Below are positions 5,747-34,957 of a stretch of DNA of 45,166 nucleotides, piece after piece. The stretch lies in NCBI GenBank assembly GCA_019347915.1, contig JAHWKL010000005.1, forward strand, positions 1 through 45,166, in the 5' to 3' direction. Position 1 is the first letter of the stretch. Every line of letters starts with the position of its first letter. The stretch comes from Actinomycetota bacterium. Lineage in GTDB: Bacteria > Actinomycetota > Acidimicrobiia > Acidimicrobiales > CADCSY01. The notes beneath the pieces were generated by a model. It was given only the letters and a program-made list of their open reading frames with translations. It made no database searches and was not told the DNA's origin. The position numbers were made by a program, and so were the translations under genes.

Positions 5747-7495
5747 CTACTGGGCCACCGAGGCGGGCCCGGTGATGACCACCGTGTCGGGCGGCAGGGT
5801 GGCGAAGCGGTCGTCGACCGAGACGGCATCGTCCGACGCCAGCAGCAGGACGGTGCCGGCGCCCTTCCCGAGGTCGAGCTTCTGGTCGGTGTCCCCCAGA
5901 TTGGCCGCCACCCGCAGCTCTCCGCGCTCGACGACCAACCACCGGGCCTGCTCGTCGTAGCGCACCCGCACCCCGTCCCGACGCCCGTCGCTGAACCCCG
6001 GCGTGCGCCGGCGCAGGGCGATGAGCGAGCGGTACCACTCGAGGACCTCGGCGTGCGGGGATCGCTCCAGCTCGTTCCAATCGAGTCTCGACCGCTCGAA
6101 GGTGGAGCGCTCCTGGGGGTCGGGCACCTCCTCGGCCGACCACCCGAAGGCGGCGAACTCCGAGCGCCGGCCCTGGCGGACGAGACGGCCCAGCTCGCGG
6201 TCCTCGTGGCTGGTGAAGTACTGGAAGGGAGTGGCGCTGGCCCACTCCTCCCCCTGGAAGACCATGGGGACGAAGGGCGCCGTCAGGTACAGCGCCGCTC
6301 CCACCTTCAACCTCCCCGTGGACAGGCTGGCTCCGATGCGGTCGCCCAGGGCCCGGTTGCCCACCTGGTCGTGGTTCTGCAGGTAGCCGAGGAAGGCCCA
6401 CCCGGGGAGCCCGGTCGGGGGGCGGCCGTGGGTGCGGCCCCGGGACGGCGCCCACCGCCCGGCATAGACCCACACGTCGGCCAGGGCGGTGGCCAGGTTG
6501 GCCAGGGCGCCGAAGTCGGCGTAGTAGCCCTCGTGCTCGCCGGTGAGGACGGTGTGCAGGGCGTGGTGGAAGTCGTCGCTCCACTGCGCGTCCATCCCGT
6601 AGCCGCCGACCGCCGGCGGGCGCACCACCCGGGGATCGTTGAGGTCCGATTCGGCGATGAGCCACAGCGGGCGGTTCTCGGTGGCGGCCAGGCCGGCCAC
6701 CTCGGTGGCGAGCTGCTCGAGGATGTGGACGGCCGAGGTGTCGACGATGGCGTGGACGGCGTCGATCCGTAGGGCGTCGACGTGGTAGTCGCGCAGCCAT
6801 CCCAGGGCGTTGTCGATCACGAACCGGCGAACCTCGTCGCTGCCCCGCTGGTCGAAGTTGACCGCCTGGCCCCACGGCGTGGAGTAGAAGGAGGTGAAGT
6901 AGGGGCCGAACCGCTCCAGGTAGTTCCCCTCGGGACCGAGGTGGTTGTAGACCACGTCGAGGACCACGCCGAGGCCCCGGGCGTGGCAGGCGTCGACCAG
7001 TCGCTTGAGCCCGTCAGGGCCGCCGTAGTCGCGGTGCGGGGCGTACAGGTCGACGCCGTCGTACCCCCAGTTGCGGCTGCCGGAGAACTCGGCCACCGGG
7101 AGGACCTCCACGGCGGTGACGCCCAGGTCGACCAGGTGGTCGAGGCGGTCGATGACGCCGTCGAAGGTCCCTTCCGGGGTGAAGGTGCCGACATGGAGCT
7201 CGTAGAGCAGGGCCGAGGGCAGGTGAAAACCACGCCAGCCCTGGTCGCCCCAGGCGAAGGCGTCGTGGTCGACGACCCGCGAGGGGCCGTGCACTCCCGA
7301 GGGCTGGAACGGCGAGCGGGGATCGGGCAGCGGCTCGGAGCCGTCGAGGCGGAAGGCGTAGTCGGTGCCGGGGCCGGCCTCGGGCACGTCGATCTCCCAC
7401 CAGCCCTGATCGGTCTCGCGCATCGGCACCGGTCGGTCGCCGCAGTCCAGCTCCACGCTGTCCGCACGGGGCGCCCACACCCGGAACGTGGTCAT
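5747..7495 (-). CDS. treZ: Malto-oligosyltrehalose trehalohydrolase (TreZ)
   Basis: TreZ cuts the terminal trehalose from maltooligosyltrehalose, the last step of the TreX-TreY-TreZ route. The protein has about 582 residues. An N-terminal beta-sandwich starts MTTFRVWAPRADSVEL, and the GH13 barrel follows. Visible GH13 motifs are AVEVLPVAEFSGSRNWGYDG, VVLDVVYNHLGPEGNYL, HVDALRIDAVHAI (nucleophile Asp), LIAESDLNDPR (acid/base Glu) and YLQNHDQVGNRA (His-Asp). The ATG at 7495 places the start at the domain edge; ATG 7504 and TTG 7552 are upstream alternatives. It is the last gene of the glgX-treY-treZ operon, 75 bases after treY. The order and the full-length motifs make the call firm. Confidence 0.95.
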   Translation of the reverse strand: MTTFRVWAPRADSVELDCGDRPVPMRETDQGWWEIDVPEAGPGTDYAFRLDGSEPLPDPRSPFQPSGVHGPSRVVDHDAFAWGDQGWRGFHLPSALLYELHVGTFTPEGTFDGVIDRLDHLVDLGVTAVEVLPVAEFSGSRNWGYDGVDLYAPHRDYGGPDGLKRLVDACHARGLGVVLDVVYNHLGPEGNYLERFGPYFTSFYSTPWGQAVNFDQRGSDEVRRFVIDNALGWLRDYHVDALRIDAVHAIVDTSAVHILEQLATEVAGLAATENRPLWLIAESDLNDPRVVRPPAVGGYGMDAQWSDDFHHALHTVLTGEHEGYYADFGALANLATALADVWVYAGRWAPSRGRTHGRPPTGLPGWAFLGYLQNHDQVGNRALGDRIGASLSTGRLKVGAALYLTAPFVPMVFQGEEWASATPFQYFTSHEDRELGRLVRQGRRSEFAAFGWSAEEVPDPQERSTFERSRLDWNELERSPHAEVLEWYRSLIALRRRTPGFSDGRRDGVRVRYDEQARWLVVERGELRVAANLGDTDQKLDLGKGAGTVLLLASDDAVSVDDRFATLPPDTVVITGPASVAQ

Positions 7496-7570
7496 GGCTG
7501 CCATCTTTGTCGATCGGGCCACCACCACGGTCGTGGCGGCGACGAGGGACAATGGTGAGTCAACGAAGCC

Positions 7571-10294
7571 CTACCTCCCCAGGCGCAGCAGAGCGACGGG
7601 GAAGGTGCCCAGCAGCGAGGCCAGCGACACCGCGCCGCCCTCGACGGCTGCTCCGGTGAGCTCGTCGCGCCAGGCGCCGGCGGGAAGCTCCACGGTGGTG
7701 TCGCCCCATCCGCCCCGCCGGGCCAAGCCGAGCACCAGGCGGGGCACCACGGTGACGACGCCCTCGCCCCGGGCGAAGGCCACGGCGTGGTCGGCGGCCT
7801 GGCCCTGGGCGACCAGCGGTCGGTAGGCGCCGGCCGCACCTGCCCCGAAGGCCTCGGGCACCTGGCGGCGCAGGTGCAGGGCGGCGCGGGTGACGTGGAG
7901 CTTGGGCAGGCCCTCGTCGCTCCGCCGGCACACCTCGGCCACGTCCATGCCCGCCACCTGTGCCAGCAAGTCGGACCGGAGGGCGAAGTCGACCGGGCGG
8001 CGGTTGTCGGGATCGACGAGGCTGAGGTCCCACAGCTCGGTGCCCTGGTACAGGTCGGGCACGCCCGGCGCCGTGCACTTCACCAGCTGGGCAGCCAGGC
8101 TGTTCACCCGGCCGGGCTCGACCAGCGGGGCCACGAACTCCTCCAGGTCGGCCAGGAAGTCGTCGTCGGCCAGGGCCGCCTCCACGAAGCGCCGCACTGC
8201 CTCGTCGTACTCGGGATCGGGGTCGATCCAGCTGGTGTGGACCTTGGCCTCCCGGGTGGCCTTCTCGACGTAGGCCAGCGCCCGCTCGACCGGCAGCGGC
8301 CAGGCCCCGACCAGCGTCTGGTAGAGCAGCCACTCGACGTTGCGGTCGGGAAGATCGGCTCCGCCGGGGGTCGACGTGCGGTGGCGCCGGTTGCGGTCCG
8401 CCCACCGCAGCACCGCCCGCCCGTAGTCGCCAGGGATCTCCGAGAGCAGCGAGATGCGGGCCCTGACGTCCTCACTGCGCTTGGTGTCGTGGGTCGAGGA
8501 CGCCAGCATGGCGCGGGGCCAGGCGCGGTGGGTGGCGGCCATGGCGTCGTGGAAGGCGACGGGGTCGGTGCCGAACACGCTGGGATCACCGCCCACCTCG
8601 TTCAGCGACACCAGCCGGTTGTAGGTGTAGAAGGCGGTGTCCTCCACCGCCTTGGCCATGACCGGCCCGCTGACCTGCTGGAACCGCAGGGACAGCTCCG
8701 TGCCCTCTCGCCCTCCCAGCCGCCCCCGCAGCACCGCTCCCAGCAGGTCGAACAGCTCGGGGTCCAGATCGGGTCGCCGCGCCGCGGCCTCGGCCAGGGC
8801 ACCGGCGAGGCGAGCCTCGTCGGCCTCGCTGACCTTGCCCTCGGCATCCACGTAGGTCCGGTACACCGGGAAGCAGGCGAGGACCTCCTGCAGGGCCTCC
8901 TGGAGCTCGTGCCGGGTGAAGTCCCGGTACCGGCGGGACGCCTCGCACACCGACACGAACCGGTGGGTGAGGCGGCTGACGTCGGCGGCCAGCACGTCCC
9001 GCATGACCAGGTGCTTCTTCTCGTGGGCCACCTCGTCCCAGTCAGTGGTCTCGCCGGTGAACTCGGCGTAGGCGCCCGTGAGGGGCGCTTCACCGGCCGG
9101 GTCCACGAACAGCCCTCCCACCCGGTTGGCGAAGTCGTAGCCGGTGGTGCCGTCGACCGGCCACGCCGAAGGCAGGTCCTCACCGTGCTCCAGGATCTTC
9201 TCGACCACCACCCAGGCCGCCGGCGCCGCCGTGCGCAGGCGGCGGAAGTAGGCCTCGGGATCGCGCAGACCGTCGGGATGGTCGATCCGCAGCCCGTCGA
9301 GCACGCCCTCGGCCAGCCACTGCAGCACCAGGGCGTGGGTGTCGTCGAAGACCTGGGCGTCCTCCATGCGCAGGGCCGCCAGCGTGGTGATGTCGAAGAA
9401 GCGCCGGTAGTCGAGCTCACGGCCCGCCGTGCGCCAGTAGGCCAGGCGGAAGTTCTGGCGATCGAGCAGGGCGTCGAGCAGGTCGACGTCGCCATTGATC
9501 CGCTCCACGGCGGCGTCGACGGCGGCGACCACCGAGGGCTCCTCCTCGCACAGGCGGGCCAGCTGGCGCTTGAGGACCTCCTTGTCCCGGTGGCGGTGGC
9601 GCACGTTGACGGCGTCGACGGCCGTGGCCGGCGGGAGCGAGGCGAAGGCGGCGGCGAGGAACTCGACGTCGTCGGCGAAGGCCTGGCCGGCCGAGCGCAG
9701 GGCGGCGCCGGCCAGGGCGAGGGGCAGATCGAACGAGCGGGGGGCGACGGGGAAGCGATGCTCGAAGTAGCTCACCAGGAAGGCCCCGCGCTGGCGCTCG
9801 AGCATCAGCTCCCCCGCCTCCAGGGCCCGCCCGTAGTGGTCGCCCAGCACCGGCATCAGCACGGTGTTGCGCAGCTTCGACTCCGGGCCCTCCCAGTCGA
9901 CGTCGAAGTAGGCCGCCCAGCGGCTGGAGGGCCCGTTCTCGAGCACGTCCTGCCACCAGGCGTTGTCGGCGGTGATGGCCATGTGATTGGGGACGATGTC
10001 GAGGACCTGGCCCAGGCGGGCAGCACCGAGGGCCTGGGTCAACCGGGCGAAGGCGGGCGCCCCGCCGAGCTCGTCGTTGACCCGCGAGTGGTCGACCACG
10101 TCGTAGCCGTGGGTGCTGCCTGCTGCCGCCTGCAGCGCCGGCGAGCTGTAGAGGTGGGAGACACCGAGGGCAGCCAGGTACGGCGCCACCTCGGCGGCGT
10201 CGTCGAAACCGAACTCCGGCCGGAGCTGCAGCCGGTAGGTGGCGAGCGGCGCCCGCCGGTGATCGCCCTCGTGGCCCGCGGTTGCCGCGGTCAC
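7571..10294 (-). CDS. treY: Maltooligosyl trehalose synthase (TreY)
   Basis: TreY is an intramolecular transglucosylase. It turns the reducing end of a maltodextrin into an alpha,alpha-1,1 (trehalose) end. The protein is 907 residues, longer than the ~720-800 usual for the family. It begins [21 protein letters not shown] and [16 protein letters not shown], the family's N-terminal signature. It also shows [27 protein letters not shown] (nucleophile Asp), [16 protein letters not shown] (acid/base Glu), [16 protein letters not shown] and a C-terminal [19 protein letters not shown] segment. The GTG start overlaps the glgX stop by four bases (GTGA), implying translational coupling. The product feeds TreZ. 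Confidence 0.95.
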
Positions 10295-12405
10295 TCCAGC
10301 TTCCGCAGCAGCACCACGGAGCGGGGGCCCACGGTCACCGGCTCACCCGCCTTGTAGAGCGGTGCCTCCACGTCGGGGACGAGCTCGGGCGGCAGGGCGG
10401 TGGTGGTGTCGAGCATGAGCTCCCAGCGGTCGCCCAGCGCCTTGGGCAGCTGGAAGTCGAGCGCCTCGAAGTGGGCGCTGAGCAGCACGATGAAGCTGTC
10501 GTCGACCACGTGCTCGCCCCGGGCGTCGGGGGTGACGATGGCCAGGCCGTTGAGGAACATCCCCAAGGCGGTGGCCGAGCCGTTCCAGTCGTCGTCGTCC
10601 AGCTCCTCGCCGTCCGGGCGGAACCAGGCGATGTCGGCCATGCCCCGCGCCTGGATGACCCGGCCGTCGAACCAGCGGCGGCGGCGGAACACCGGGTGCT
10701 GGCGCCGGAAGTTGATCAGCCAGCGGGTGTACTCGAGCAGGATCTCGTCGGCGTGCAACCAGTCGAACCAGGAGACTTCGTTGTCCTGGCAGTACCCGTT
10801 GTTGTTGCCCCCCTGCGAACGGCCGAGCTCGTCGCCTCCGAGCAGCATGGGCACGCCCTGGGAGAGCATGAGCGTGGCCAGGAAGTTGCGGCGCTGGCGG
10901 GCCCGCAGCTGGAGGATGTCGTCGTCGTCGGTGACGCCCTCGACGCCGCAGTTCCACGACCGGTTGTGGCTCTCGCCGTCGCGGTTTCCCTCCCCGTTGG
11001 CCTCGTTGTGCTTCTCGTTGAACGAGACCAGGTCGGTAAGGGGGAAGCCGTCGTGGGCGGTGACGAAGTTGATGCTGGCGCTGGGCCGGCGCCCGTTGGC
11101 GGCGTAGAGGTCGGGGCTGCCGGTGAGGCGGTAGGCGACCTCACCCAGGTGGGTGTGCTCACCGCGCCAGTAGTCGCGCATGGTGTCGCGGTACTTGCCG
11201 TTCCACTCCGACCACAGGGGCGGGAAGTTGCCGACCTGGTACCCGCCCTCGCCCACGTCCCACGGCTCGGCGATGAGCTTGACCTGACTGACCACAGGGT
11301 CCTGCTGGATGAGGTCGAAGAACGCCGACAGCCGGTCGACGTCGTGCAGCTCCCGGGCCAGGGCGGAGGCCAGGTCGAAGCGGAACCCGTCGACGTGCAT
11401 CTCGGTGACCCAGTAGCGCAAGCTGTCCATGATGAGCTGCAGCACGTGCGGGTGGCGCATGTTCATGGTGTTGCCCGTGCCGGTGTAGTCCATGTAGAAG
11501 CGACGGTCGTCGGGCACGAGGCGGTAGTAGGCGTTGTTGTCGATGCCCTTGAACGACAGCAGGGGACCGAGGTGGTTGCCCTCGGCGGTGTGGTTGTACA
11601 CCACGTCGAGGATGACCTCGATGCCGGCCTCGTGGAGGCGCATCACCATGGCCTTGAACTCCTGGACCTGCTGGCCGCGCATGCCCGCCGACGAGTACTC
11701 GTTGTGGGGCGCGAGGAAGCCGATCGAGTTGTAGCCCCAGTAGTTGCGCAGGCCGCGGTCGATCAGATGGGCGTCATGGACGAACTGGTGCACCGGCAGG
11801 AGCTCGACCGCAGTGATGCCGAGGCCCTGGAAGTGCTCGATGGCCTCGTTGGTGGCCAGGCCGGCGTAGGTGCCCCGCAGCTCCTCGGCGGTGTCGGGGT
11901 GGGTGATGGTGAAGCCCTTGACGTGCACCTCGTAGACCACGGTCTCGTGCCACGGCGTCCGCGGGGGTCGATCGTTGCCCCAGTCGAACCACGGGTTGAC
12001 CACCACCGCCCTGCCCACGAACGGAGCACTGTCGAGCTCGTTGGCCTCGCCCTCCGGATCGCCGAAGTGGTAGCCGAAGGCGGCTTCGTCGAACTGCGTC
12101 ACCCCGTCGACCGCCTTGGCGTAGGGGTCGAGCAGCAGCTTGTGGGGGTTGCAGCGGTGCCCGGCCCAGATGTCGCGCGGCCCGTGCACCCGGTAGCCGT
12201 AGCGCTGCCCCGGCCCGACGTTGGGCAGGTAGCCGTGCCAACAAAAGGCGGTCACCTCCGGTAGGGGAACGCGGGTCTCCTGGCCGGCGTCGTCGAACAG
12301 GCACAGCTCGACCTTCTCGGCGACCTCGGAGAACAGCGAGAAGTTGGTCCCCATGCCGTCGAAGGTCGCCCCGAGGGGGTACGGCTCACCGGGCCAGATC
12401 CTCAT
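10291..12405 (-). CDS. glgX: Glycogen debranching enzyme (GlgX/TreX)
   Basis: A 704-residue GH13 isoamylase-type enzyme that hydrolyses alpha-1,6 branches. It supplies linear maltodextrins to TreY and TreZ encoded just downstream. The N-terminal CBM48-like domain starts [26 protein letters not shown] (read across the domain edge). The barrel shows [44 protein letters not shown] (nucleophile Asp), [18 protein letters not shown] (Glu) and [14 protein letters not shown]. It also has the debranching-type [20 protein letters not shown] region. The ATG at 12405 is supported by a TAGCGT box 7 bases upstream, so the operon mRNA may be leaderless. It is divergent from the DtxR-like regulator, with about 128 bases between the starts. 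Confidence 0.95.
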
Positions 12406-25812: not shown

Positions 25813-27927
25813 CTACTCCCAGTGCCGGCGGGGGCGGATGGCGACGGCGCAGTGCTTGTAGGACGGCTGGCGGGAGGAGGGGTCGAAGCTGGGGAAGGTC
25901 AGGGCGTTGACCTGGGGGTCGTGCATGGGCGCGAAGAGCTGCCCGGGGCGCACGGTGGGGGTGACCACCGCCCGGGCCTGCATCGACCCCCGCGCCGAAG
26001 TGACCACCACCTCCTGGCCGGCCACCACCCCGAAGCGGTCGGCGTCGGCCGGGCTGATCTCCACGTAGGGCCCGGCCGGGTGCAGCGTGCGCAGCACCGC
26101 CGACTTGGCCGTGCGGGTCTCGGTGTGCCACTGGCTGGAGCTGCCCCGGCCGGTCAGCAGGACCAGGGGGTAGCGCCGGCTGGTCGCCTCCCGCACCGGC
26201 CGGGGGTCGCCGAAGCAGAACCGGGCCCGCCCGTCGGGATGGAAGAAGCGCCCGTCCTCGAACAGGCGGCGCTCCTCGCCGAACCGGGCCACCGATCCCT
26301 CCGGGAAGGGCCACTGGATGCCCCCCACCTCGTCGAGCATCCGGTAGCCGTCGATGCCGGTGACGTCGCACGGCCGCCCGGCCGAGAGCCGGCGCAGGAC
26401 GGCGAAGACGGCCTCGGGCGACGACCACTCGTCGAACAGGCGCCCGCACCCCCACGCCTCGGCCACCAGCTTGAAGATGGCGAAGTCGGCCAGGGCCAGC
26501 CCGGGCGCCCGGGCCACCCGCTTGACCAGGCCGAGCCGGCGCTCGGAGTTGACGAACGTCCCCTCCTTCTCACCCCAGCCGCCGGCGGGCAGGACCAAGT
26601 CGGCGCGCTGGGCGGTCTCGGTGGTGGTGTAGAGGTCCTGGACCACGAGCATGTCCAGGCGCCCCAGCAGGTCGTGCAGCTCCGAGGAGTTGATCCACGA
26701 GTGGGCCGAGTTGGTGGCCACGACCCACAGGCCCCGGATGTCGCCGGAGGCGATGCCCTCGACGATCTGGTCATAGGCCCAGCTGGGCCGGTCGGGGACG
26801 AGGCCGGGGTCGATGCCCAACAACGCCGCCACCTCGGCACGGTCCCCCTCGTCGGCGAAGTCGCGACCGGCGAAGAGGCTGGTGGTGTTGGAGAACAGCC
26901 GCGAGCCCATGGCGTTGCACTGGCCGGTGATGGAGTTGGCGCCGGTGCCGGGCCGCCCGACGTTGCCGGTGAGCAGGGCCAGGTTGATGATGGCCTGGGC
27001 CACCAGCACCCCTTCGTGGCTCTGGTTGACGCCCATGGTCCACCAGAACGAGACGCGCCGGCCGCCGGCGATGGTGGCGGCCAGGCGCTCGAGCGCCTCG
27101 GGCGCCACCCCGGTGGCGGCGGTGACCCGCTCGGGCCCGAAGGCGTCGACGTGCGCGGCGAAGGCGTCGAAGCCGGACGTGGAGGCGTCGACGAAGCCCC
27201 GGTCGACCGCCCCCCGCTCGATGAGGAGCCGGGCCAGTCCGTAGAGCAGGGTGAGGTCGGACTTGGGCGCCGGCGCCAGGTGCTGGGTGGCGGCCGCCGC
27301 CGTCTCGGTGGTGCGGGGGTCGATCACCACGATCTCGGGGCGGTGGGGGTTGGCGCACACCCGCTCCCAGAGCACCGGGTGGGCGATGCACAGGTTGGAC
27401 CCGACCAGCACGATGACGTCGGACTGCTCGAGGTCGGCGTAGGTGTAGGGCGGGGCGTCGAAGCCGAAGGCCTGCTTGTAGGCCACCACCGCGGTGGCCA
27501 TGCACTGGCGGGTGTTGCCGTCGCCGTGGACCATCCCCATGCCGAACTTGGCCACCGCCCCGAGCAGGGCCATCTCCTCGGTGGGGATCTGCCCCGTGCT
27601 CAGGAAGGCCACCGAGTCGGGCCCGTGCTCGGCCTGCACCGCCTTGAAGCCGCCGGCGAAGGCGTCCAGCGCCGTCCGCCAGTCGACGGGCGCCAGGTTG
27701 CCCTTGCCGTCGCGCAGCAGCGGCGTGGTCGCCCGGTCGGGCGCCCGCAGGGGGGCGAGCGCCTCCCACCCCTTGGGGCAGGCCATCCCCCGGTTCACCG
27801 GGTACGACTGGTTGGGCGACAGGTCGACGGCCCGGCCGTCCCGGAGGCGGACGTCGAGCGAGCAGCCCACCGAGCAGAAGCCGCACACCATGGCAGTGGC
27901 CTGCCCGCCCCCGAGCGCGGTGTTCAT
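25813..27927 (-). CDS. Molybdenum-bis-MGD nitrate reductase, catalytic subunit (NarB/NasA-like)
   Basis: A 704-residue member of the molybdopterin oxidoreductase family. The N-terminal [4Fe-4S] site uses Cys15, Cys18, Cys22 and Cys50 ([13 protein letters not shown] ... GMACPKGW). The likely molybdenum ligand is Cys142 in [12 protein letters not shown]. The C-terminal MGD-binding domain is seen in [17 protein letters not shown] and [16 protein letters not shown]. There is no twin-arginine signal, so it works in the cytoplasm. It lacks the C-terminal [2Fe-2S] domain of Klebsiella NasA. The next gene upstream in the operon encodes a DmsB/DmsC-like electron-transfer partner, and the two overlap by ATGA. 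With NarK and a nitrite reductase nearby, nitrate is the probable substrate. Another oxyanion cannot be excluded. Confidence 0.88.
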
Positions 27928-29588
27928 GCCGGCTGGCCGGGCATGCGGGCCGGGGCCACGGCGGTGAAGAACTGGCTGCGCTCGAGCAGTTGCCCGGCCA
28001 GCAGCAGGGCGGTGGCGGCCACGGCCACGGCCAGGCCGGTGCCGGCGGTGGCGGCGGAGGCGGTGGCCGGGGCCACCGCCACCAACGCCAGGAGGCTCAG
28101 GCCACCGGTGGCGAACCGCCACTGGGTCGTGGTCCGCAGCTCCCGGGTGAGCAGGACGGCGGTGCGGCGCAGCTCGTCGGGGGAACCGGGGCGCAGGTGG
28201 CGCAGGACGGCCGCCTCCCAGAGGAGCTGGGCGCCGGTCGCCAGCGCGGCCAGGAGCGCCAACGGTGCGACGGGAATCGTCGCCACCGCACCGGCGCCCG
28301 TGGTCCCCGCGGCCAGTGACGAGCCCAGGGCCACCACCAGGGCGGTGGCGCAGCCGGAGGCGACGGCGGTCAGGGTGAACTTCGCCCCGGTGGTGGGCAC
28401 CGCCCACCACGCCCGGGCCGTCACCGCGTAGACCAGCACCGAGCAGGCCACCCCGGTGACGCCCGCCAGCGCCGCCAGGGCGCCGAGGAGGTTCTCCAGC
28501 GGAGAGCCCACGCCGGCGAGCACAGATCCGGCGTGGGCGGCGGCCAGGGCGGCGAAGGCGCCGAAGGCCACGATCTCCCGGCTGAGCCACGACCGCCGGA
28601 TGCCGAGCACGGCTCGAAAGGCCCGTTCGGGCCGGCCGAGGTGGAGCACGCTGGCGGCCAGGGCCACCAGGCCCACGGCCAGCGCCACCACGGCGTTGGT
28701 CGTCCGGGAGGGCCCGGCCACGCTGTCACCGCCGAGGGCGGCCACGGCCAGGCCGACCACCGACGTGCCCACCGCCAGCTGGGTGAGCACCAGCATCACC
28801 GCCAGGGGCGGGTGCGCCTGCCCCGGTCCGGCGGGGGCGCCGGCGGGCTGTGGTGGTGCCGGCGTGCGGGCACTGCGGTAGGTCGTGGCGGGCACGGTGA
28901 TCGGCGACGGCGGCGCCCCGGCGACGAGCGGCCCGTCCGAGGCGGCTCGGGCAGCGGCCACCTCGACCACGTCGACGGAGATGGCGCCGCTGGGGCAGGC
29001 CTGCACGCACGCCGGCGCCTCGCCCGCCTCCAGGCGGTCGGTGCACAGGTCGCACTTGCGCACGATCCCCCGGGCGGGGTTGTAGCGGGGCACCTCGTAC
29101 GGGCAGGTCATGGTGCAGTAGCGGCATCCGATGCAACTCTCGTCGAGGTGCGCCACCACGCCGGTGACGGGGTCCTTCTCGTAGGCCTTGGCCGGGCAGC
29201 CCTTGAGGCAGGCCGGGTCCACGCAATGGTGGCACGAGGCCGTCACCGTCTGCTGGTAGGGCCGTTCGGCACCGCCGGCCCGGACCACGCCCACCGAGCG
29301 GAACGACTCGCCGTCGTCCAGCCCGTTCATGACGTGGCAGGCGGTGACGCAAGCCTTGCACCCGGTGCAGGCGTCGAGGTCGACCACGAAGCCGTACTGC
29401 TGGCCCGGCCCCGGCCGGGTCAGCGGGACGAGCTCACGGTGGTAGCGGGCCTGGGACGGCAGGGTCTCGCTCGCCGGGCGCCGGATGAAGCGCTCCACCG
29501 GGCTCAGGTCGGCCTGCTGCGCCAGGTAGTGGTCGATCGGCGTCAGCTCGTCGGCGCCGGCCTGGTCGAGGCCACCGGCGACCGTCAC
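27924..29588 (-). CDS. Fused DmsB-like Fe-S / DmsC-like membrane anchor subunit
   Basis: A 554-residue protein made of two parts. Residues ~50-210 form a polyferredoxin with four cluster motifs: [42 protein letters not shown] and [20 protein letters not shown]. After a Pro-rich linker, about eight hydrophobic segments (from ~260) resemble the DmsC anchor that oxidises quinol. It should pass electrons from the quinol pool to the nitrate reductase encoded next, whose start it overlaps by ATGA. No Tat signal is seen, so the clusters face the cytoplasm. Its GTG start overlaps the Met8-like stop by GTGA. The combination is a membrane-bound donor for an assimilatory-type enzyme. Confidence 0.88.
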
Positions 29589-30283
29589 CAGGCCGGCGCC
29601 GGCGCCGGCGCCGGCGCCTCGAGGGCGGTCGCACCCGGCGAGTCCCAGCTCAGCACGAACGCCCTCGACAGCCGCTCGAGGTCGGTGCGGTCACCGCCGT
29701 GGGCGACGGCCCGCCGGCCGGGCTCGAGCAGACCATCCCGCCAGGCGGCGTAGTCGTAGCGGTACCGGCCCTGGCGGCGCAGCTCGGCCCGGGCCTCGGC
29801 GGCCACCGTCACCAGGTCGCCGAGGGTGGCCGGGAGCACGGCGTCGAGCTCCTCCCGCAGGAAGCGGGAGGCGGCCGGGCTGTGGCCGTCGGTCGTGACG
29901 GCCACCGTGACCGGCCCCCGGCGCACGACGGCAGGGACGGTGACGTCACAGTTGGCGGGGTCGTCGACCGCGTTGAGCAGGGCCCCGGCCCGGTGGGCGT
30001 GGCGGCGCAGCCGGCCGTTGAGGCGCCCGTCCCCGGTGGCGGCGAACACCAGCGAGGCCCCCCGCAGGTCGCCCCGGCGGTAGCGGCGGGGACGCCACTG
30101 GAGGCGTCCCCCGGCCACGAGCTCCCCCAGCCGGGCGGTGATCCGGGGGCTGACCACCACCAGGCGGGCACCGGTGGGCAGCAGCGTCTCGACCTTCGCC
30201 TCGGCGGCGGCGCCGCCGCCGACGACGACGACGGTGGCGCCCGACAGGCGCCACGACACCACGTACCCACGGGTTGCGTGCAC
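29585..30283 (-). CDS. Precorrin-2 dehydrogenase / sirohydrochlorin ferrochelatase (Met8/CysG-N-like)
   Basis: A 232-residue bifunctional-type enzyme that makes siroheme from precorrin-2, first by NAD-dependent oxidation and then by iron insertion. The Rossmann motif is VVVVGGGAAAEAKVETLL. The middle shows GASLVFAATGDGRLN, LLNAVDDPANCDVTVPAVVR and TDGHSPAASRFLREELD, all family hallmarks. Siroheme is the cofactor of the nitrite reductase encoded divergently, which explains the location. The last ~10 residues are an Ala-Pro tail from GCCGGC repeats (29592-29618). The GTG at 30283 has a TACCGT box 7 bases upstream. The uroporphyrinogen methyltransferase part of CysG is absent here. Confidence 0.9.
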   Translation of the reverse strand: MHATRGYVVSWRLSGATVVVVGGGAAAEAKVETLLPTGARLVVVSPRITARLGELVAGGRLQWRPRRYRRGDLRGASLVFAATGDGRLNGRLRRHAHRAGALLNAVDDPANCDVTVPAVVRRGPVTVAVTTDGHSPAASRFLREELDAVLPATLGDLVTVAAEARAELRRQGRYRYDYAAWRDGLLEPGRRAVAHGGDRTDLERLSRAFVLSWDSPGATALEAPAPAPAPAW

Positions 30284-30444: not shown

Positions 30445-32397
30445 ATGGCCGCCCCCGACATCCCCGCCGCCAAGCGCGCCGGCCTGCCCGTCGACCTGGA
30501 CCGGCTGGCCGCCGAGGGCGATGGCTGGCTGAGCGCCGAGGACCGGTACTCGCTCAAGACCTGGGGCGTGTGCACCCAGGACCAGGACCACGTGTTCATG
30601 GTGCGGGTCCGCACCCCGGGCGGGGCGCTGCCGAGCGCGCAGGCCCGAGGCCTGGCCCGCATCTCCCGTTCGTTCGGGCCGGACTGGCTCCACCTGACCA
30701 CCCGCCAGAACGTCGAGCTCCACTGGGTGCCCGACCGGCGGGTGGCCGCCCTGCTCGACGCCGTGGCCGAGATCGGCATGACGACCCGGTCGGGCTGCGG
30801 CCACACCCTGCGCAACGTGATGTGCTCGGAGGAGGCCGGCCTCAGCCTCGACGAGCCCTTCGACTGCCTCCCCGACGCCCGGGCGGTCAGCGACGCCGTC
30901 GTGGCCCGCTCCGCCGAGCTGAACACCGTCCTGCCCAGTCGCGTCAACGTCGCCTTCGGCGGCTCCCCCCGGTGCCGGGCCGACGCCCGCCTCAACGACG
31001 CCGGCTTCGTGTCGGTGCTGCGGGACGGCGAGCCGGGCTACCAGCTGTGGGGCGGCGGCAGCCTGGGCAAGGCCCCGTTCCTGGCCGTGGAGCTCGCCGA
31101 CTTCGTGCCCCGGGCCCACGTCGTCGCCGCCGCCGAGGCCCTGATCGAGGTGTTCGTCGAGCACGGTGACCTCGACAAGCCGGCCAAGGGCCGCATGAAG
31201 TTCGTGGTCGAGCGCCTGGGCGAGGACGGCTTCCGGGCGGCCTGGGACCAGGCCTTCGCCGCCGCCCGGCGCCGGCCCCACCCTGAGCCCTCGCCCATCG
31301 AGGTCCTGCCCGAGGTCGACCGGGTGGCCGTGCTCACCCACGTCCCCCCCGGGGGGTGGTCGGCCGGCGTGCGCCCCCAGCGGGTGCCCGGGCTGGCCAC
31401 CCTCACCGTCGACATCCCCCTGGGTGACACCAACGGCTCCGAGCTGGAGGTGCTGTGCGACCTGGCCGACCAGCACGGCGACGGTGCCGTGAACCTCAGC
31501 CGTGACCAGAACGTGGTGCTGCGCAACGTGCCCGTCGCCGCCGTGACCGCGGTGCGGGACGCGCTGCGCACCCGGGGGCTGTACCTGGCCGGCGAGGCCC
31601 GCACCGCCTCGGTCCGGGCCTGCACCGGCTCGGCGGTGTGCGCCCTCGGCATCACCACCGCCCCCGACGCCGGCAAGGCTCTGCTGACCAGCGCCGGGCT
31701 GGGCCGGAACTCGTCGCTGCGGGTGCACGTGTCGGGTTGCCCCAACTCCTGCGCCCAGCACCAGGCCGGTGACATCGGCCTGTCCGGCTCGAAGGTGCGG
31801 GTCGGCGGCCGGGCCCGGGACGGCTACCACGTGTACCTGGGCGCCGACCTCGACGCCGGCCGGGTGGGCGAGGTGGTGGGCCGGGTGGCGACCGAGGACG
31901 TGCCGGCGGCGGTGGAGACGGTGGTGGGCGCCTGGGAGTCGCTGCGCCACGACGGCGAGCGGCTGGGCACCACCGTGCACCGCATCGGCCACGACGCCTT
32001 CGCCCGCCACCTGGAAGCGGTCATGGACGAGCGCTGGGCCAGCGGGGCCGAGCCCGAGGTCGAGGTGGTCGCCGCCGGCGCTGGCGCTCCAGCAGCGACC
32101 GCCGACCTGGGAACGCTGCCGCCGGGCTCGGTGACGACTGTCGAGGTCCAGGGCACGGCCCTGGCCGTGGCCAACGTCGACGGCACGTTCTGCGCCGTGG
32201 CCGACGAGTGCCCCCACGCCGGAGCCTCCCTGGGCGAGGGCACCCTCGAGGGCTCCTCCCTGCGCTGCCCTCTCCACGGCGCCACCTTCGACGTCCGCAC
32301 CGGCGAGGTGCTCTCCGGCCCCGCCGTCGAGCCCGTGCGCTGCCACCCGGTCGAGGTGGTCGACGGCGTGATCCGCGTGCCGTCGCCCACGGCGTAG
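30445..32397 (+). CDS. Siroheme nitrite/sulfite reductase fused to a Rieske domain
   Basis: A 650-residue protein in two parts. Residues 1-~550 are a NirA/sulfite-reductase-type enzyme. The siroheme/[4Fe-4S] ligands are Cys393, Cys399, Cys432 and Cys436 (CTGSAVC and CPNSC), and the half-repeat motifs WLHLTTRQNVELHWV and VNLSRDQNVVLRNV are present. Residues ~550-650 are a Rieske [2Fe-2S] domain with C-P-H at 589-591 and C-P-L-H at 608-611, like the small subunit NirD. The context (siroheme gene, nitrate reductase, NarK) favours nitrite reduction to ammonium with six electrons. NirD normally partners the NADH-dependent NirB, not a NirA-type enzyme, so this fusion is unusual. The electron donor is unknown; a ferredoxin feeding the Rieske centre is one option. 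Sulfite as substrate is the alternative. Confidence 0.88.
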   Translation: MAAPDIPAAKRAGLPVDLDRLAAEGDGWLSAEDRYSLKTWGVCTQDQDHVFMVRVRTPGGALPSAQARGLARISRSFGPDWLHLTTRQNVELHWVPDRRVAALLDAVAEIGMTTRSGCGHTLRNVMCSEEAGLSLDEPFDCLPDARAVSDAVVARSAELNTVLPSRVNVAFGGSPRCRADARLNDAGFVSVLRDGEPGYQLWGGGSLGKAPFLAVELADFVPRAHVVAAAEALIEVFVEHGDLDKPAKGRMKFVVERLGEDGFRAAWDQAFAAARRRPHPEPSPIEVLPEVDRVAVLTHVPPGGWSAGVRPQRVPGLATLTVDIPLGDTNGSELEVLCDLADQHGDGAVNLSRDQNVVLRNVPVAAVTAVRDALRTRGLYLAGEARTASVRACTGSAVCALGITTAPDAGKALLTSAGLGRNSSLRVHVSGCPNSCAQHQAGDIGLSGSKVRVGGRARDGYHVYLGADLDAGRVGEVVGRVATEDVPAAVETVVGAWESLRHDGERLGTTVHRIGHDAFARHLEAVMDERWASGAEPEVEVVAAGAGAPAATADLGTLPPGSVTTVEVQGTALAVANVDGTFCAVADECPHAGASLGEGTLEGSSLRCPLHGATFDVRTGEVLSGPAVEPVRCHPVEVVDGVIRVPSPTA

Positions 32398-32401
32398 GCG
32401 A

Positions 32402-33763
32402 ATGTCGCGCTCGGCCTGGATCGACCGCTGGGAGCCGGACGACGAGGCGTTCTGGGCCTCGACCGGCCGCCGGATCGCCCGGCGCAACCTGACCTTCTCC
32501 ATCTTCGCCGAGTTCCTGGGCTTCTCGGTGTGGCTGCTGTGGAGCGTCGTCGCCACCCGGTTGAACGACGCCGGTTTCGACCTGTCCTCCAGCCAGCTCT
32601 TCACCCTGGTGGCGGTGCCCGCCCTGGTCGGGGCCACGCTGCGCTTCCCCTACACCTTCGCCGTGCCCCGCTTCGGCGGGCGCAACTGGACGGTGATCAG
32701 CGCCCTGCTCCTGCTGGTGCCGACCGTGCTGCTGGCCGTGCTGGTGGGCAACCCCTCCACCCCGTACTGGGCCCTGCTCGCCGGCGCCGCCACCGCCGGC
32801 CTGGGGGGCGGCAACTTCGCCTCGAGCATGGCCAACATCTCCTTCTTCTTCCCGGAGCGGGAGAAGGGCTGGGCCCTCGGGCTCAACGCCGCCGGGGGAA
32901 ACCTCGGCGTGGCCGTGCTCCAACTGGTGGCGCCGATGGTGGTCACCATCGGCGCCGGGCTGCACCTGGCCCGGGCCGGCCTCGTGTGGGTTCCCCTGAT
33001 CCTCGCCGCCGCCGTCTGCGCCTGGCGGTACATGGACAACCTCACCACCGCCCGCTCCCCGCTGGGTGACCAGCTCGCCGTCGCCCGGCGCCGTCACACC
33101 TGGATCGTGGCCTGGCTCTACGTCGGCACCTTCGGGTCGTTCATCGGCTTCTCCGCCGGGCTGCCCCTGCTGATCAGCCAGGAGTTCGCCGATCCCAACG
33201 CCGTGGGCTACGCCTTCCTCGGCCCCCTCGTGGGTTCGCTGGCCCGGCCCCTCGGGGGCCGGCTGGCCGACCGCTTCGGTGGCGCCCGGGTCACCATGGC
33301 CAGCTTCGTGGTCATGGCCGGTGTCGTGCTCGGCGTGGTGGCCGTGCTCGCCGCCAGGGATCACCGGTATGCCTTCGCCGGCTTCCTCGGCCTCTTCCTC
33401 GTCCTGTTCATGGCCTCGGGCGTGGGCAACGGCTCGACCTTCCGCATGGTGCCGGTGATCTTCCGGGCCCACCACCTGGCTGGGACCGGCGGCGAAGGGG
33501 AGGCGGCGCACCAGCAGGCTCTCGTCACCAGCCGGCGGGAGACGGCGGCGGTGCTGGGACTCACCTCGGCCGTCGGCGCCTACGGCGGCTTCCTCGTGCC
33601 CCAGGCGTTCGGGCTGTCGGCGGGCGCCACCGGCGGCCTCCATGCCGCCCTCATGGCCTTCGTCGCCTTCTACGTCTCGTGCATGGCCCTCGTCTGGTGG
33701 TGCTACCTGCGCCGCAGCTTCGCCCTCCGCCGGGCTCCCAATCTGGCCTGGGCCCGCCCCTGA
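32402..33763 (+). CDS. narK: Nitrate/nitrite transporter (NarK-type, NNP family)
   Basis: A 453-residue major facilitator with about 12 membrane segments. The family signature stretches are GLGGGNFASSMANISFFFP, EREKGWALGLNAAGGNLG and, in the second half, MASGVGNGSTFRMVPVIF. These glycine-rich and asparagine-containing helices line the nitrate path in NarK. The gene starts four bases after the nitrite reductase stop and is presumably translated from the same mRNA. A loop of about 25 residues (TGGEGEAAHQQALVTSRRE) between late segments is cytoplasmic. It probably imports nitrate for the reductase encoded on the other strand, and may export nitrite. Direction of transport is not shown by sequence. 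Confidence 0.93.
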   Translation: MSRSAWIDRWEPDDEAFWASTGRRIARRNLTFSIFAEFLGFSVWLLWSVVATRLNDAGFDLSSSQLFTLVAVPALVGATLRFPYTFAVPRFGGRNWTVISALLLLVPTVLLAVLVGNPSTPYWALLAGAATAGLGGGNFASSMANISFFFPEREKGWALGLNAAGGNLGVAVLQLVAPMVVTIGAGLHLARAGLVWVPLILAAAVCAWRYMDNLTTARSPLGDQLAVARRRHTWIVAWLYVGTFGSFIGFSAGLPLLISQEFADPNAVGYAFLGPLVGSLARPLGGRLADRFGGARVTMASFVVMAGVVLGVVAVLAARDHRYAFAGFLGLFLVLFMASGVGNGSTFRMVPVIFRAHHLAGTGGEGEAAHQQALVTSRRETAAVLGLTSAVGAYGGFLVPQAFGLSAGATGGLHAALMAFVAFYVSCMALVWWCYLRRSFALRRAPNLAWARP

Positions 33764-34097: not shown

Positions 34098-34868
34098 TCA
34101 ACCGCCGGTGAGGCGGTAGCCCCGGCGGGCCACGGTCTCCAGCCCGCCGGCCGCCGGCCCCAGCCGGCGTCGGAGGCGGCCCACGGCGACCTCCACGGCG
34201 TGGGGGTCGACACCCTCGGCGCCCCAGACCGCCCGAAGCAACTCCTCCTTGCCCACCACCGTCCCCGGTCGCCGGGCCAGCACGGCCAACAGCGCCTGCT
34301 CCCGGCCGGTGAGCCACACCTCCTCGCCGCCCACCACGGCCAGCGCCCCCTGGAGCACCACGTCTCGTCCATCCAGGCGCAAGCGGACCGTGGCCTGGTC
34401 GAGGCGCTCGACCAGAGCACCGACGAGGGCGCCGAGCCGCAGCCGCTCCGAGCGCACGACGCCGGTCATGCCCGCCCTGGCCGCCGCCTCGGCGCAGCCG
34501 GCGCCCAGGCACGCCGGCACCACGTCACCGGCCAGGGCGGCCAGCGCCTCGTCGCCACGGTGATCGTCCGTCGCCCGGGCCACGAGCTCCCGTACGGCGG
34601 TGGTGGTGGTGAAGGTGACGGCGTCCACGTGGCGGCGGGCCAGGACGTCGAGCAGGCACAGCTCGGGCACGGCGCTGGTGGGCGGTCCGGTGGGGCGTCC
34701 GGTGGAGGGCGGAAGGTCCTCAGCGGCGCCGGCGAAGACCACGCCGGCGCCCGCCCGCCGCAGGAGCCGGGCCTGCTCCTCCCGGCGCCGCCGGGCGGTG
34801 ACCGCCACCCGCCAGCCGGCCAGGGGCGCGGGGGCGGCGGTGACCGAGCCGTCCTCCATGGAAACCAT
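34098..34868 (-). CDS. HemD-like / winged-helix hybrid regulator (shortened HemD part)
   Basis: A ~256-residue protein with an N-terminal uroporphyrinogen-III-synthase-like part and a C-terminal OmpR-type winged helix (about residues 165-256: LTGREQALLAVLARRPGTVV, GKEELLRAVWG, AVEVAVGRLRRRLG, ETVARRGYRL). Such HemD/wHTH hybrids sit beside nitrate and nitrite genes in actinobacteria and are thought to control them. A complete HemD part has two lobes and ~250 residues. Here LAGWRVAVTARRRREEQARL is followed within ~45 residues by DAVTFTTTTAVRELVARA, which normally opens the last third of the domain. Most of one lobe and the hinge are missing, so it is unlikely to be an active synthase. ATG 34868 or 34859 is the start; TTG 34922 is less likely. 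Confidence 0.78.
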   Translation of the reverse strand: MVSMEDGSVTAAPAPLAGWRVAVTARRRREEQARLLRRAGAGVVFAGAAEDLPPSTGRPTGPPTSAVPELCLLDVLARRHVDAVTFTTTTAVRELVARATDDHRGDEALAALAGDVVPACLGAGCAEAAARAGMTGVVRSERLRLGALVGALVERLDQATVRLRLDGRDVVLQGALAVVGGEEVWLTGREQALLAVLARRPGTVVGKEELLRAVWGAEGVDPHAVEVAVGRLRRRLGPAAGGLETVARRGYRLTGG

Positions 34869-34884
34869 GGCGCCAGTGTCCCCG

Positions 34885-34901
34885 GCCGGCGTTTCGCCGG
34901 C
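34885..34901. repeat. Inverted repeat before the HemD/wHTH gene
   Basis: GCCGGCG-TTT-CGCCGGC is a perfect seven-base inverted repeat 17 bases upstream of the ATG at 34868. It could be an operator or a 5' hairpin. A TGTCCC half-site (34877-34882) lies between it and the start. Confidence 0.35.
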
Positions 34902-34957
34902 GTTGCCGCCACCTTTACGCAACGTGTGCGGGACGACGGGAGCTTCACGTTTGTGCC

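Follow-up and report, generated by a model that had tools for sequence, protein, structure and literature searches.

The assimilatory nitrite reductases that contain siroheme are commonly sorted into ferredoxin-fed NirA enzymes and NADH-fed NirBD enzymes, and their actinobacterial homologues are often annotated merely as nitrite/sulfite reductase. The NirA of a cyanobacterium, Plectonema boryanum, carries a plant-type [2Fe-2S] ferredoxin as a C-terminal extension. Nitrite reduction in Paracoccus depends on NasG, a separate small Rieske protein (PMC5424462), which provides a precedent for Rieske-assisted nitrite reduction by a siroheme enzyme. Here we describe an actinobacterial locus in which a NirA-like core and a Rieske domain are encoded as a single protein, a variant of the ferredoxin-type nitrite reductase that is real, rare and apparently undescribed.

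The window analyzed is a 45,166-nucleotide stretch from an Actinomycetota bacterium (assembly GCA_019347915.1, contig JAHWKL010000005.1, positions 1 to 45,166). An unbroken frame at 30445-32397 on the forward strand encodes 650 amino acids followed by a stop codon, and is divided as follows.

30445..32397, forward strand: putative fused NirA-Rieske nitrite reductase, 650 aa, defined by its frame, its Pfam domains and five other fused relatives in which the Rieske part is visible

30445..32058, forward strand: NirA-type siroheme/[4Fe-4S] core, residues 1-538, with ligands C393, C399, C432 and C436, with N168, and with the clade-specific C43, R166 and C177

32059..32100, forward strand: linker, residues 539-552, of which 540-548 are predicted to be disordered; it varies among relatives

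32101..32379, forward strand: dioxygenase-type Rieske [2Fe-2S] domain, residues 553-645, with ligands C589, H591, C608 and H611

Pfam recognizes two NIR_SIR_ferr/NIR_SIR repeats (1.2e-33 and 4.9e-38) and a single Rieske domain at residues 557-635 (1.4e-17). The core displays the CX5C...CX3C pattern of [4Fe-4S]-siroheme ligands, while the tail has both the CXH...CX2H ligands and the fold of a Rieske domain. The start codon is backed by the fused relatives, all of which begin at the M/V-AAPDIP position. An AlphaFold2 model built from 25 family rows (mean pLDDT 89.9, pTM 0.79) has a pair of folded domains; its single disordered segment is 540-548, where pLDDT falls below 50. The original prediction of a NirA-type core with both cysteine pairs (393/399 and 432/436), running unbroken into a Rieske domain with ligands at 589, 591, 608 and 611, was borne out to the exact residue. 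Equally, Pfam found no FAD/NADH domain in the protein, and a complete Rieske domain without an FAD domain sets the architecture apart from both NirBD and plain NirA, as had been proposed.

The tail is another matter. It had been described as NirD-like, but it matches the HcaC dioxygenase ferredoxin family at 4.9e-25 and NirD only at 3.8e-9. We rejected NirD as its identity: the TIGR02378 score is 36.6 bits against a cut-off of 74.65, and the Rieske-domain matches listed by Foldseek are dioxygenase ferredoxins (rmsd 1.3-1.9 Å). Judged by profiles and predicted fold, the tail resembles dioxygenase-type Rieske ferredoxins and not NirD. Foldseek matched the core to the tobacco and spinach nitrite reductases and to Mycobacterium tuberculosis NirA. 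Because the core falls below the NCBIfam equivalog cut-offs (203 versus 594 bits for PRK09566, 247 versus 523 for PRK09567), it is classed by these profiles as NirA-like and not as an equivalog member. The NirB model TIGR02374 reached 36 bits against a cut-off of 578, which places the protein outside NirBD.

The residues at the substrate positions point to nitrite. Arg166-x-Asn168 occupies these positions in all 21 aligned members of the clade, none of which has the Lys-x-Lys of sulfite reductases; the latter motif occurs in the 13 other actinobacterial sequences aligned, including the genome's own sulfite-type paralogue (L004). In the alignment Asn168 corresponds to tobacco Nii3 Asn226, a nitrite-type residue at a position that has been probed by mutation (3vlx, N226K). 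Cys43 and Cys177 are invariant within the clade and absent from the other aligned homologues. Cys118 is common to the clade and to most other aligned actinobacterial homologues, and aligns with a cysteine of M. tuberculosis NirA (1zj8) that we take to be its active-site cysteine. Almost all the remaining aligned actinobacterial homologues have tyrosine in the Cys43 column, which is presumably the position of the crosslinked tyrosine of M. tuberculosis NirA/SirA. In a separate alignment (A2) of 14 proteins, fused, split and that of G669 (a close relative discussed below), four non-cluster cysteines, C43, C118, C141 and C177, never vary, and two of these, Cys43 and Cys118, coincide with the Cys-Tyr crosslink site of SirA.

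The same fusion, full length and free of stops, is present, with 80-82% identity along its entire length, in four of the 11 other genomes of the window's family (G400-G403), giving five fused family genomes with the window's own. The fifth of the other fused relatives, likewise full length and free of stops, is G582, from another family of the same class, whose linker is about 90 residues longer; in G567, of the same family as G582, the end of the contig cuts the gene before the Rieske part. A contig scan, which reached close relatives only, returned three matches, two of them the contigs of G402 and G400. Judging from the Acidimicrobiales match L044, the window's class is probably Acidimicrobiia. 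Pairwise pN/pS values against the window lie between 0.28 and 0.58 for the core and between 0.43 and 0.77 for the Rieske domain, and dN/dS in two closer pairs is 0.13-0.21 in both domains. On these values, purifying selection acts on the core and on the Rieske domain alike.

The split arrangement occurs in 11 genomes from other classes of actinobacteria (L051-L061): NirA ends before the Rieske part, which is encoded by a gene of its own just downstream, on the same strand. These NirA homologues show about 48-60% identity, and their Rieske proteins are about 42-51% identical to the window's Rieske domain. By comparison, the nearest full-length Rieske domain from another locus of the window's own genome (L002) reaches 38%, below the split partners. 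With start codons chosen by us, 10 of the 11 split loci have a predicted Rieske start that lies 1-4 nt inside the end of nirA, overlapping its stop, and the two genes are apparently translationally coupled; the exception, G394 (L055), has an in-frame TAG between them. The NirA of this locus (6399-8402, reverse strand) also has a divergent C-terminus, with CQNAC in place of CPNSC, and is possibly decaying or affected by a sequencing error. Every one of the 17 Rieske partners, fused or split, retains all four ligands, and no Rieske motif was seen beside the sulfite-type homologues scanned. Two close relatives, G669 and L044, have a NirA of this subfamily but no Rieske gene linked to it, and a formate/nitrite transporter gene comes next; G669 has one distant Rieske-like match elsewhere in its genome (33%). 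The Rieske protein is thus either not required in every case or can come from elsewhere.

An IQ-TREE phylogeny of 34 cores unites the split, fused and G669 sequences in one clade (support 99/98). Within it, the split rows form one group (100/99) and the fused rows another, weakly supported one (82/58); with linkers of very different length in the two fused families, f1 and f119, this support is compatible with one or two fusion events. Whole-genome distribution was surveyed in Actinomycetota. Besides the window's genome, an even sample of 397 genomes contained the split form in 11 and a fragment in one, and 345 genomes of the window's class contained subfamily relatives in five more, one fused and one probably fused. 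Searches of the two classes that have the split pair, covering 24 and 66 genomes, turned up no fusion, and nor did plasmid records, where the best match, at about 31% identity, covered the core only. The fusion is rare, and it is probably the derived state. Two findings could have undone the original prediction, degenerate Rieske ligands in relatives or a widespread, characterized fusion. Neither was borne out: the ligands are intact, the fusion occurs in few genomes, and a search of an open-access library yielded no account of NirA fused to, or paired with, a Rieske protein.

The genes around the fusion speak to its likely role.

32402..33763, forward strand: nitrate/nitrite transporter of the NarK family, separated from the fusion gene upstream of it by 4 bp (TIGR00886, 329.7 bits against a cut-off of 311.7)

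29585..30283, reverse strand: precorrin-2 dehydrogenase of CysG N-terminal type (siroheme synthesis), divergent from the fusion gene (TIGR01470, 7.4e-45, above cut-off)

27924..29588, reverse strand: fusion of a DmsB-type Fe-S protein with a membrane anchor of DmsC type (Pfam Fer4_11 and DmsC; TIGR02951)

25813..27927, reverse strand, start approximate: catalytic subunit of a NasA-type molybdopterin nitrate reductase (top NCBIfam hit NasA at 4.1e-136, under the cut-off of that model)

34098..34922, reverse strand: NnaR-like regulator, HemD plus an OmpR-type DNA-binding domain (Pfam HEM4 and Trans_reg_C; NnaR architecture as in PMC11162112)

NnaR regulates nitrate and nitrite assimilation in mycobacteria (PMC11162112). 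In the NnaR-like protein of the window (34098-34922, reverse strand), the N-terminal HemD part is short and weak, with HEM4 at 27.5 bits, at the cut-off. Taken on their profile matches, the neighbours mark a nitrate-assimilation locus, which supports the assignment as a nitrite reductase. Within 25813-29588 (reverse strand), the NasA-type nitrate reductase is encoded together with the DmsB-DmsC fusion, a pairing that suggests a quinol-fed, membrane-anchored assimilatory nitrate reductase. In f48 and f72 loci, a molybdopterin protein of the sulfite-oxidase family adjoins nirA-rieske (L054, 12198-13374, forward; L060, 10564-11425, reverse; L061, 8323-8931, forward). Its partner at L054 and L060 is a protein of 107-108 aa with four cysteines and no Pfam or NCBIfam match, and the two may constitute an unrecognized nitrate reductase pair that replaces NasA.

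From these features we infer a catalyzed reaction, an electron route, a docking mode and a donor. The fusion protein would be the assimilatory nitrite reductase of the nitrate-assimilation cluster, in which a siroheme/[4Fe-4S] core of NirA fold reduces nitrite to ammonium and a tethered, low-potential Rieske ferredoxin serves as a built-in point of entry for electrons. The Rieske cluster would be reduced by a soluble donor of low potential, probably ferredoxin; the flexible linker would allow the Rieske domain to dock near the [4Fe-4S]-siroheme center and to hand over six electrons, singly. In the split relatives, the separate Rieske protein—apparently translationally coupled—would be the partner. 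Support comes from the complete ligand sets in both domains, with those of the Rieske domain intact in 17/17, and from the overlapping split pair in 10/11 loci, the 99/98 support for the NirA clade, Asn168, the nitrate-related neighbours and the two-domain model. We consider this explanation as a whole probable, albeit with modest confidence. With NasG of Paracoccus and the ferredoxin-extended cyanobacterial NirA as precedents, the simplest role for the Rieske domain is to carry electrons, as a tethered module, to the [4Fe-4S]-siroheme core, and the route from donor to Rieske cluster to [4Fe-4S]-siroheme to nitrite put forward in the original prediction is plausible.

Which donor might feed such a relay is hinted at by the split loci. 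Three f51 loci (L056, L057 and L059) have a gene for a plant-type [2Fe-2S] ferredoxin upstream of nirA, in L056 at 10469-10783 (reverse strand), about 80 bp away, and this position suggests ferredoxin as the donor. An FAD partner gene, which the original prediction had raised, did not appear among the representative neighbouring genes scanned, a part of all the neighbours. A BphA4-type reductase was rejected as donor: the Reductase_C flavoprotein that usually serves dioxygenase Rieske ferredoxins was undetected in the five fused family genomes, whose bins are 71-98% complete, leaving its absence uncertain for any one genome. Dioxygenase-type Rieske clusters usually have potentials near -150 mV, above those typical of siroheme/[4Fe-4S] centers, so electron transfer to the core may be uphill. 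This possibly higher potential and the members without a linked Rieske protein counsel caution over the relay.

The same observations lend themselves to other readings. Were the Rieske domain off the main electron path, with the core fed directly by ferredoxin at the customary docking site, it could be a redox sensor, a stabilizing module or an auxiliary reservoir; the full ferredoxin-type NirA fold of the core alone, the ferredoxin gene directly upstream in the f51 loci and the members that lack a linked Rieske protein (G669 and L044) would all be in keeping with this. Strict conservation of the ligands (17/17), tight gene coupling and fusion, and purifying selection on the Rieske domain weigh against it, and we think it unlikely. 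A role shared between two enzymes, in which the Rieske domain connects NirA with the NasA nitrate reductase as well, much as NasG stands between NasB and NasC in Paracoccus (PMC5424462), draws on that precedent and on the presence of NasA in the same cluster. This NasA has its own DmsB-DmsC partner, however, and the split f48/f72 loci keep the Rieske gene with no NasA beside nirA-rieske, which leaves a shared role very unlikely.

It is harder still to see the protein as a sulfite reductase or as another siroheme enzyme such as CobG, a reading we hold to be extremely unlikely. The fold is the same as that of SirA and SiR, and there is a secondary match to the CobG precorrin-3B synthase model TIGR02435 (2.4e-46), but its 158 bits fall below the cut-off of 234.8, Asn168 is of nitrite type where lysine would be expected, the genome has a separate Lys/Lys paralogue, and the context is a nitrate gene cluster. 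As for an assembly or frameshift artefact of the metagenome bin, a single indel could in principle join two genes that relatives keep apart; the recurrence of the fusion in independent genomes, four others of the family and G582, rules this out, and with a coherent AlphaFold2 model besides, we give the idea practically no weight.

A Rieske-fed NirA, the explanation that we favor, would join the NirA/NirBD division and points to an uncharacterized way of feeding electrons into nitrite assimilation. Tentatively, and with rather less confidence than an even chance would warrant, it may represent a third class, by electron input, among the siroheme nitrite reductases of assimilation. In these NirA enzymes electrons would enter through a Rieske subunit, present as its own protein or as a fusion, the active site would be altered (Cys43/Cys118 at the SirA crosslink position, Arg166 and Cys177), and the route would be neither the NADH-FAD of NirB nor direct ferredoxin docking on the core; among the genomes sampled, the class would be confined to some Actinomycetota. 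With the Rieske protein available both as a coupled gene and as a fusion, the subfamily offers a clean system for the role of Rieske proteins in nitrite reduction, which is unclear for NirD as well. Arg166-x-Asn168, Cys43 and Cys177 also serve as sequence markers by which nitrite-type enzymes of this group can be told apart from those of sulfite type when actinobacterial genomes are annotated.

Among known systems, the protein shares with plant Nii/NirA (3b0g, 2akj), the best structural matches of the core, the two-repeat NIR/SIR fold, the [4Fe-4S]-siroheme ligands, the lack of FAD and the nitrite-type asparagine (N168, tobacco N226), but identity is about 26-27%, a C-terminal Rieske domain is added, Arg166 replaces lysine, and Cys43, Cys118 and Cys177 are invariant. 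M. tuberculosis NirA/SirA (1zj8) has the fold of the core and a cysteine aligned with Cys118, yet is a Lys-x-Lys, sulfite-type enzyme with no Rieske domain, whereas the fusion combines Asn168 with one. NirBD and fungal NiiA likewise join a siroheme reductase to a small Rieske-fold part; the fusion differs in having no FAD/NADH or BFD domain, in missing the NirB and NirD cut-offs and in its dioxygenase-type Rieske. In the Paracoccus NasB-NasG-NasC system, NADH enters via NasB, while the fusion encodes no FAD part. The dioxygenase ferredoxins BphF, HcaC and CarAc have the same Rieske fold (rmsd 1.3-1.9 Å) and ligand pattern, but here the Rieske is fused to or paired with NirA, and Reductase_C was undetected in the five fused family genomes. 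Plectonema boryanum NirA, too, has a C-terminal [2Fe-2S] carrier of its own, but there it is a plant-type ferredoxin and here a Rieske domain.
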